A DNA stretch of 64,000 bases from a virus. The stretch lies in IMG/VR virus record IMGVR_UViG_3300026097_000008, positions 1 to 64,000 of that record; one strand, written 5' to 3'. Each line of letters begins with the position of its first letter. Within the stretch, counting starts at the first letter, position 1. A program made the translations under genes and the position numbers. The notes under the pieces are model-generated. The model did not search any database. It had not been told where the DNA came from and was given only the letters and a program-made list of their open reading frames with translations. Of this stretch, positions 532 to 10,498 are shown piece after piece.

Positions 532-567
532 GTATATACAAGCTTAAACAATATAGAGGGCACTACT

Positions 568-864: not shown

Positions 865-901
865 GTATGTACACGTTAACAATAGCAAAGAGGGCAAACT
901 T

Positions 902-1129: not shown

Positions 1130-1166
1130 ATACACGTACACTAACAAATAGCAAAGAGGGCTATAT

Positions 1167-1408: not shown

Positions 1409-1450
1409 ATACACATACACTAAACAAACAATTGCAATAGAGGGCAAACT

Positions 1451-1620: not shown

Positions 1621-1663
1621 ATACACACACTAAACAAACAATTGCAAAAATAGAGGGCTATAT

Positions 1664-2053: not shown

Positions 2054-2098
2054 GTACACATACACTAAACAAACAATTGCAAAAATAGAGGGCTATAT

Positions 2099-2332: not shown

Positions 2333-2371
2333 ATACACGTACACTACGCAAACAGCAATAGAGGGCAAACT

Positions 2372-2898: not shown

Positions 2899-2934
2899 GT
2901 AAACATAAACTTAAACAAGCGAGAGGGCTACGCC

Positions 2935-3288: not shown

Positions 3289-3321
3289 GTATATAACAGT
3301 TAGGCAAACGGAGGGCAATCC

Positions 3322-4646: not shown

Positions 4647-4671
4647 GTATTCATAGTGAGGAGGGCATCCA

Positions 4672-4826: not shown

Positions 4827-4857
4827 TTATATAACAGTTAGGGCATTGGAGGGCAAG

Positions 4858-5351: not shown

Positions 5352-5375
5352 ACAATAAAGCAGAGGGCTTACAAA

Positions 5376-6269: not shown

Positions 6270-6330
6270 TTGCGGAAGTTGATCTCAGAATGTGCCCTCG
6301 TTCTTAGTAGATCCTTCCGCAATATTTTTT
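6270..6330 (+). terminator. tRNA-operon terminator with a TGTGCCCTCG loop
   Basis: The stem is TTGCGGAAG (6270-6278) with CTTCCGCAA (6314-6322), then GATCT/AGATC and AGAA/TTCT, closing a 10-nt loop TGTGCCCTCG (6291-6300). A T-rich run ATTTTTT follows. The loop is identical to that of the terminator at 8669-8713 although the stems are unrelated. Confidence 0.85.
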
Positions 6331-6370: not shown

Positions 6371-6409
6371 GTATATAACAGTTAGGAAATAGACATTAGA
6401 GGGCACACT

Positions 6410-6923: not shown

Positions 6924-6959
6924 GTATAGACAATGAAGCAAACGATGAGGGCAAACATC

Positions 6960-7497: not shown

Positions 7498-7525
7498 TTG
7501 ACAAACTTGGATAAGACTGTATACT
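7498..7525 (+). promoter_or_regulatory. Early promoter 17 (16-nt spacer)
   Basis: TTGACA at 7498-7503, 16-nt spacer, TATACT at 7520-7525. It drives the AAA+ ATPase gene and, by read-through, the structured RNA that follows. Confidence 0.85.
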
Positions 7526-7556
7526 ATTATTAATAGTTAGGACAAACGAGGGCGAT

Positions 7557-8558
7557 ATGCAAAACATTAAAATCACAGAAGGGTACTACAAGATTCGAGG
7601 CAAAGACACATCAGTGGCTGGACTTGTGTTTCCCCTAGTAGAAGAATTTAAAGTAGGCAACAAAGGCGGCTATGTCACAGTAGACGGCCGAGCAATTGCA
7701 GGCTTCCCAGACCGTAATATCAAAATCAGTTGCGGTGGCCCGGAGGACTACGAGCTTGTTGGTGCAGACGTATCAGTCAGCCAGCGAGAAGAGACAGACG
7801 AAGAGATCATTGAGCGCCTGCGAGAGCGTTTCGACATGCTAAAGGAAATGACCAAAGCTGTCAAGAAAGGCGATGTGCGAGCGATGATTGTTTCGGGTCC
7901 TCCGGGCGTAGGTAAGAGTCACGGCGTAGAAGAAGTGCTAGACCGCTACAAGATGATGGAGACACTTGGCGGCACCAAGAAGTACGAAGTCGTCAAAGGT
8001 GCTATGAGCCCGATCGGATTGTACGTAAAGCTTTTCAAATATGCAGACAAAGACAATGTATTGGTGTTCGACGACTGTGATTCAATCTTCGACGAGCCGC
8101 TTGCTCTTAATATTTTAAAAGCTGCGCTTGATAGCAAGAAGACACGTACCATTCACTGGAACACAGATTCATTCAAGTTGCGCAACGAAGGAGTGCCAGA
8201 CAGTTTCAAGTTCGAAGGTAGCTGTATCTTTATTACCAACCTGAAGTTTGATAACGTTAAGAGCAAGAAACTACGTGATCACCTTTCAGCACTAGAGAGC
8301 CGTTGTCACTATATGGATCTTACCATTGACACAGAGCACGAGAAGATGCTCAGAATCAAACAGGTGATCCGCGACGGTATGCTAGATACATATGAGTTCG
8401 ATGAAGAACTCAACGAAGAGATTATCGACTTTGTCGATATAAACAAGAAGCGACTGCGTGAGCTGTCATTAAGAACAGTACTTAAGGTCGCCGACTTGGC
8501 CAAAGCTTTTCCCAGCAATTGGGAGGCGATGGCTGAAAACACTGTGATGTCGCGTTAA
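7557..8558 (+). CDS. AAA+ family ATPase (333 aa)
   Basis: A cytoplasmic P-loop ATPase. Walker A is GPPGVGKS at about residues 114-121 and Walker B is VLVFDDCD at about 168-175. A sensor-1-type asparagine follows in IFITNLKF near 223-230. The first 90 residues form a beta-rich N-terminal region unlike classical AAA+ proteins. AAA+ ATPases of this size occur in many large phages; their substrates are mostly unknown. The leader is GAGGGCG, a rare variant. It is the largest protein of the early region, and its last codons form part of the first hairpin of the downstream RNA. Confidence 0.88.
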   Translation: MQNIKITEGYYKIRGKDTSVAGLVFPLVEEFKVGNKGGYVTVDGRAIAGFPDRNIKISCGGPEDYELVGADVSVSQREETDEEIIERLRERFDMLKEMTKAVKKGDVRAMIVSGPPGVGKSHGVEEVLDRYKMMETLGGTKKYEVVKGAMSPIGLYVKLFKYADKDNVLVFDDCDSIFDEPLALNILKAALDSKKTRTIHWNTDSFKLRNEGVPDSFKFEGSCIFITNLKFDNVKSKKLRDHLSALESRCHYMDLTIDTEHEKMLRIKQVIRDGMLDTYEFDEELNEEIIDFVDINKKRLRELSLRTVLKVADLAKAFPSNWEAMAENTVMSR

Positions 8559-8713
8559 TGCCCTCGACGCTATCACAGTTAATAGATATGATTATTGAGC
8601 AACAGCCCTCACTGCTCTGATCATATCACAAGGTGTCAGATGCAAGCCCTCACGCTCTGCACCGCTCTAGCCCTAGCAGGATGTGCCCTCGTCCAATGCT
8701 AGGGCTTTTTTTT
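8541..8713 (+). ncRNA. Four-hairpin RNA displaying GCCCTC loops (putative regulatory RNA)
   Basis: Four successive stem-loops follow, and slightly overlap, the AAA+ gene. H1: ACTGTGAT 8541-8548 with 8572-8579. H2: GATATGAT 8585-8592 with 8620-8627, inner GAGCA/TGCTC, loop ACAGCCCTCAC. H3: GGTG-t-CAGA 8632-8640 with TCTGCACC 8656-8663, loop TGCAAGCCCTCACGC. H4: the terminator at 8669-8706, loop TGTGCCCTCG. Each loop region holds one GCCCTC (8560, 8605, 8646, 8685). This hexamer complements the GAGGGC leader motif of the early genes. H1 and H4 have TGCCCTC and H2 and H3 have AGCCCTC, matching the GAGGGCA and GAGGGCT leaders. I see no separate promoter, so it may be released from the AAA+ mRNA 3' end. 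Function is inferred. Confidence 0.6.
8669..8713 (+). terminator. Strong intrinsic terminator
   Basis: AGCCCTAGCA (8669-8678) pairs with TGCTAGGGCT (8697-8706), with a small inner GGA/TCC, loop TGTGCCCTCG, then eight T residues (8706-8713). It ends the AAA+ ATPase transcript and the structured RNA. Confidence 0.93.
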
Positions 8714-8724
8714 GATCTTTTCGG

Positions 8725-8753
8725 TTGACAGCACTGCTGAGTGGTGCTATAGT
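8725..8753 (+). promoter_or_regulatory. Early promoter 18
   Basis: TTGACA at 8725-8730, 17-nt spacer with AGCAC-N9-GTGCT, TATAGT at 8748-8753. It starts 12 nt after the terminator. Confidence 0.85.
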
Positions 8754-8788
8754 ATATGTATAGTTAGAACAAACGGAGGGCAATCCAA

Positions 8789-10123: not shown

Positions 10124-10156
10124 TTATTAAACAGTTAAGCAAAAGAGGGCAAACTA

Positions 10157-10462: not shown

Positions 10463-10498
10463 GTATAGACAATGAAGCAAACACAGAGGGCAAACTGT

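Follow-up and report, generated by a model that had tools for sequence, protein, structure and literature searches.

Antisense RNAs that expose the same anti-Shine-Dalgarno (anti-SD) motif in several hairpins are known from bacteria. The alpha-r14/NfeR1 RNAs of Sinorhizobium have three hairpins in which an identical, ultraconserved anti-SD motif is left unpaired on stems that differ strongly, and the redundant loops of NfeR1 silence by pairing at the translation initiation region, with feedback on a regulator (PMC10746234). In LhrC of Listeria, pairing with G-rich SD regions is through three CU-rich (UCCC) sites, which are redundant and of which one is in the loop of the terminator (PMC4132741). 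Most phage sRNAs described so far have one target or a few, or act on host genes; c4 RNA of phages P1 and P7 is an antisense RNA that pairs around a ribosome-binding site (RBS) through complementary sequences likely to lie in loops (PMC12197685). In phage T4, early genes are shut off post-transcriptionally at the SD/start region by RegB and RegA, own message included (PMC3014915).

The RNA described here lies at the 3' end of an early message in the first part (64,000 nt, hereafter the window) of a 155 kb virus record. The record has a T4-like core that includes a gp17-like terminase, for which the nearest isolate is of PA5oct type at 54%, as well as a tail sheath and a DnaB-like helicase; the phage is large, uncultured and T4-like. 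Behind an AAA+ ATPase gene are four hairpins whose loops are complementary to a tag found before nearly every early gene. We consider it probable, with good confidence, that the 3' end of this message acts as a multi-target, multi-loop antisense sRNA that would block the RBSs of the early regulon, that of its own message among them.

By anatomy, the nearest known RNAs are the alpha-r14 family and LhrC, and the nearest phage RNA is c4. The likeness to alpha-r14/NfeR1 is in the several hairpins, the same exposed anti-SD motif and the variable stems; those RNAs, however, are bacterial, have their own promoter and direct the motif CCUCCUCCC against general SD sites (PMC10746234), whereas the phage RNA is the end of an early message, with a co-evolving motif for an extended leader tag carried by nearly all early genes. 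Membership of the alpha-r14 family was rejected, the motif being GCCCUC and not CCUCCUCCC, with no Rfam match to the family. LhrC differs in being a multi-copy bacterial stress sRNA with its own promoters, mixed loop and single-stranded sites, and bacterial targets (PMC4132741); c4 differs in having a single target (ant) and an immunity function that is not regulon-wide (PMC12197685). RegB and RegA do the job that we propose for the phage RNA, but are proteins. The new part is thus the regulon-wide, co-evolving tag/anti-tag in a phage, and a literature search confined to non-subscription papers found no phage RNA of this form, in agreement with the original prediction. The features of the locus are as follows.

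7498..7525, + strand: TTGACA-16-TATACT, early promoter for both the AAA+ gene and the RNA
7557..8558, + strand: AAA+ ATPase gene (PHROG 1250, function unknown; synteny in relatives), the hairpins being the 3' UTR of its message
8541..8579, + strand: hairpin 1, loop AATGCCCTC, from the fold; loop open
8585..8627, + strand: hairpin 2, loop ACAGCCCTCAC, from the fold; loop open
8632..8663, + strand: hairpin 3, loop AAGCCCTCAC, from the fold; loop open
8669..8714 (stem-loop to 8706), + strand: hairpin 4, the intrinsic terminator, loop TGCCCT(C) and then T8, from fold and sequence
6270..6330 (stem-loop 6270-6322), + strand: fifth, solitary anti-leader hairpin, loop TGTGCCCTCG, a terminator directly behind a tRNA-Leu gene

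The + strand from 8541 to 8706 folds into exactly four stem-loops, followed by U8 (T8 in the DNA), with a minimum free energy (MFE) of -67.5 kcal/mol, whereas dinucleotide shuffles give -42.9 +/- 4.0 (z = -6.2; none of 200 as good). All four GCCCTC copies, at 8560, 8605, 8646 and 8685, are in loops, two as TGCCCTC and two as AGCCCTC, and their unpaired probability is 0.84-1.0; the exception is the final C in the loop of the terminator, where it closes the stem. Folding of the minus strand is poorer (z = -3.6), and an RNA from that strand displaying GAGGGC was ruled out because its fold is weaker and it has no terminator. The 5' arm and loop edge of hairpin 1 contain the last codons of the AAA+ gene, with the stop codon at 8556-8558 inside the hairpin, so that the array is the 3' UTR of that gene. 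The promoter at 7498 shares its type with the promoters of the other early genes, and between it and the hairpins no consensus promoter was found that would keep all four hairpins. The sole candidate for a promoter of the RNA's own is a 9/12 match within hairpins 1-2; it was rejected, since transcripts from it would lack hairpin 1. A further early promoter follows the hairpin-4 terminator at 8725.

The array of GCCCTC loops is not there by chance. In the whole 155 kb record there are five strong intergenic hairpin loops with this motif, the four of the array and one at 6294, which answers the objection that GCCCTC might be just as common in unrelated hairpins. This fifth hairpin is the terminator of a tRNA-Met/Arg/Leu cluster; among the hairpins found in the tRNA cluster of one relative (L001), none was a solitary GCCCTC hairpin. 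An Rfam search of the window returned three tRNAs only, and no known RNA family exceeded its gathering score at the array, where the best match was NsiR1 (E = 4.1), far below that score. The original prediction had seen four hairpins with GCCCTC in or at the edge of the loop, the last of them a terminator; refolding bears out both points, but the set was incomplete, the hairpin behind tRNA-Leu having been missed.

GAGGGC, the reverse complement of the loop motif, occurs 28 times in the window, compared with 11.1 +/- 3.3 expected, and none of 100 shuffles reaches this number. Of its 20 copies on the + strand, 18 fall between 500 and 10,500, each 3-9 nt upstream of a start codon that an early TTGACA-TATANT promoter precedes; the remaining two (3166 and 9058) are coding. 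The putative targets, all on the + strand, are these.

556..561, + strand: GAGGGC target, early leader
890..895, + strand: GAGGGC target, early leader
1156..1161, + strand: GAGGGC target, early leader
1440..1445, + strand: GAGGGC target, early leader
1653..1658, + strand: GAGGGC target, early leader
2088..2093, + strand: GAGGGC target, early leader
2361..2366, + strand: GAGGGC target, early leader
2923..2928, + strand: GAGGGC target, early leader
3311..3316, + strand: GAGGGC target, early leader
4661..4666, + strand: GAGGGC target, early leader
4849..4854, + strand: GAGGGC target, early leader
5363..5368, + strand: GAGGGC target, early leader
6399..6404, + strand: GAGGGC target, early leader
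6947..6952, + strand: GAGGGC target, early leader (start codon 6961)
7548..7553, + strand: GAGGGC in the AAA+ gene's own leader (putative autoregulation target)
8776..8781, + strand: GAGGGC target, leader of the next early gene after the array
10145..10150, + strand: GAGGGC target, early leader
10486..10491, + strand: GAGGGC target, early leader

The tag is thus present in 18 of the 21 promoter-proximal early leaders, and the other three (GAGGGT, GAGGGA and AAGGGC) are one base off. It is followed by A in 12 leaders, by T in five and by G in one; these counts, like those of the two loop types, agree with the ones originally given. For early leaders, the median calculated energy of the loop-leader duplex is about -13 kcal/mol, compared with -3.4 to -5.0 for 117 other genes; it reaches -10 kcal/mol for 11 of 15 early leaders but for only 1-4 of the 117. 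The RNA therefore shows what is found in multi-loop anti-SD sRNAs, namely several hairpins with an identical exposed motif that complements the SD regions of many targets more than those of other genes. Nested cofolding of the RNA with the leaders, a method that cannot model loop-only pairing, gave modest energies, and at a few leaders the SD pairing was weak or absent. Between 1380 and 2100 of the window, neighbouring early leaders have a long stretch in common (ACACTAAACAAACAATTGCAA...TAGAGGGC), which suggests that whole promoter-leader cassettes have been copied.

Relatives were gathered by their AAA+ protein, in overlapping sets of 65 viral contigs and then 28 and 80 more distant ones, and the hairpin RNA is present in more than 100 of these environmental phages; unrelated GC-rich coding sequences also returned by a pattern scan were set aside as evidence. 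The original prediction had looked to such relatives for constant loops and covarying stems, and both are found. In 64 loci, termed class A, 2-5 GCCCTC motifs follow the AAA+ gene directly, nearly all in hairpin loops, and bases 1-5 of the 168 sites are unpaired in 92-96% of folds. In a set of 102 well-formed GCCCTC hairpins, five or six of the six standard pairs occur at stem positions 1-8, and there are 57 different inner stems around a fixed loop core, a strong covariation of the stems about a conserved loop. Within class A, covariation between loop and leader at the sixth base is not significant (rho 0.08, p 0.62). At L022 and L034 the leaders are mostly GAGGGA and the loops mostly GCCCTC, leaving five pairs. 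In L022, the loop of the terminator that follows the AAA+ stop (4588) reads TTCCCTC and the leaders read GAGGGAA, possibly a local match of loop and leader. At L029 (2186-3060), about 0.7 kb of other sequence separates the AAA+ stop from the hairpins, which persist beyond it.

Elsewhere the loop and the leader have both changed. Class B comprises 37 loci with hairpins next to the AAA+ gene, with the loop (GAT)TCGCTCCC and leaders AGGAGCGA(A); in L055-L057 there are two hairpins, both with GATTCGCTCCC as the loop, and the early leaders read AGGAGCGAA. In a further class B set (19 after dereplication), one such motif lies 0.6-0.95 kb downstream of the AAA+ stop, and it is a hairpin in the three loci inspected (L196, L198 and L216). 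In these and similar freshwater relatives, the motif is a single GATTCGCTCCC behind other small genes, so that the RNA need not adjoin the AAA+ stop codon. Class C is one locus (L155); it has three loops with TTGCTCCC, and 34 of its 41 leaders read GGAGCA(A). A motif-free scoring, in which all MFE loops of a locus were compared with its own and with foreign leaders for the best six-base complement, matched 0.67 (A), 0.56 (B) and 0.83 (C) of own leaders, against 0.004-0.16 (0.4-16%) of foreign-class leaders and 0.035 (3.5%) of shuffled ones. On the AAA+ tree, on which the labels L201_A and L205_A are false (a single coding GCCCTC each), class A is one clade and class C lies inside class B, which implies two or more joint switches of loop and leader. 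Such compensatory change in two separate RNAs strongly supports direct base pairing, with the reservation that class switches are few and the tests of co-evolution rest on about two events. The three natural loop/leader versions are ready-made compensatory pairs.

The uniformity of the leaders alone is not evidence, since it is also seen in clades without the RNA. In L201 (whole record G001), ACGGAG occurs in 13 of 22 promoter-proximal leaders, mostly followed by AA, with the leader form ACGGAGAA; none of the 25 TTCTCCG sites examined in the record is in a convincing hairpin loop. In L154 the uniform leaders read AGGAGCA, and none of the 30 YGCTCCT sites examined, of 66 in the record, is in such a loop. 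Uniform leaders can arise otherwise, for example from copied promoter-leader cassettes.

Could these be ordinary terminators or mRNA-stabilising hairpins, their matches to the leaders owed to chance or to an inverted cassette of shared descent? Hairpin 4 is indeed a terminator and hairpins are common behind phage genes, but four of the five strong GCCCTC loops in 155 kb sit in one array, the loop stays constant while the stems vary, and loop and leader switch jointly; we regard this explanation as extremely unlikely. There may be a relation to the PeSL cassettes of T4-type phages, mobile units of an early promoter and a terminator stem-loop between genes, in that an early promoter follows the terminator here (8725); a four-loop array with a leader complement is not known to belong to such cassettes. 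That the hairpins pair with the AAA+ leader (7548) and control that gene alone, all other matches being cassette copies, is improbable too, although less so than the reading as ordinary hairpins. That leader does contain GAGGGC, and the uniform leaders of clades without the RNA would suit such copying; but a single leader needs fewer than 2-5 identical loops, many class B phages have the motif behind other genes, 0.6-0.95 kb further on, and there is a solitary copy behind the tRNA cluster.

An array of many identical loops with a terminator at its end also recalls the sponges CsrB and RsmZ, hairpin arrays in which the repeated loop motif (GGA) is the target motif of a protein, and the loops could by analogy be decoys that titrate a translational regulator, as CsrB does CsrA. 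A decoy, however, should copy the target motif, whereas the GCCCUC loops complement the leader motif, which argues against a CsrB-type sponge. Moreover, loop and leader have been switched together, still complementary, in three classes, so that a protein would have had to change its specificity at two complementary sites at once. The joint change between phage clades favours antisense pairing, as originally preferred, and makes a sponge highly unlikely. Pairing by itself is compatible with either sign of regulation, and multivalent loops could join messages, so that the RNA might protect or activate the early leaders, or gather several messages, with no silencing. We think this improbable as well, because the bases paired are the SD site, 3-9 nt before the start codon, a position at which other RNAs are known to block initiation by pairing (NfeR1, PMC10746234; LhrC, PMC4132741; c4 RNA, PMC12197685).

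We therefore return to an antisense RNA that silences the early regulon. The pairing of loops with leaders is strongly supported by the sequence comparisons; repression we infer from the position of the tag, and release as a 3' UTR sRNA and the timing of the shut-off are further parts of the proposal. The early promoters would fire together, the one at 7498 driving the AAA+ gene, whose message would supply the RNA; as read from the sequence, the transcript should run through the four hairpins and end at the fourth. The four GCCCUC loops may be presented by the full message or after processing of the 3' UTR, and each could pair with GAGGGC over the SD site of nearly every early gene, which would keep 30S ribosomes off. 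Since the RNA comes from the same promoter type as its targets and its own leader is among them, early expression would limit itself, closing down by delayed negative feedback as the RNA accumulates. Late genes, which have no tag, would be spared. The bases past the core SD (GC of GAGGGC, CGAA of GGAGCGAA) would be the regulon address read by the loops, and the tRNA trailer hairpin may be a second source of loops once tRNA processing frees it.

One RNA seems to address the early genes of the phage as a whole temporal class. This would explain how early translation could be closed in the absence of a RegA-like protein, and it offers regulon-wide control by RNA as a portable design. A search for RegA found none in this record (G000), which is possibly incomplete, and the same search was positive in two Straboviridae; the search for RegB was positive in no record and is uninformative on its presence. 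On balance, we lean towards the wider view that large T4-like phages of a widespread aquatic lineage make the early-to-late translation switch by RNA alone, through a tag/anti-tag code that co-evolves and differs by clade, in place of RegB/RegA-type proteins.

Cultured carriers did not come to light: blastn of 50,697 phage records gave no match to the hairpin RNA, and no such array follows the AAA+ homologues of five isolates (PA5oct, S13, VAP7, VS1 and phiA8-29). Neither among the four ncRNAs known from RNA-seq of PA5oct, the nearest isolate, nor among its leaders is there a counterpart. Two contigs with the AAA+ gene and the hairpin RNA (L251 and L252) were binned with a Porticoccaceae MAG and a Flavobacteriaceae MAG, a weak and conflicting hint of the host. 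Homologues of the AAA+ protein (PHROG 1250) occur in 1,235 phage records, among them those of T4-like phages, and its link to the hairpin RNA may go beyond mere position.
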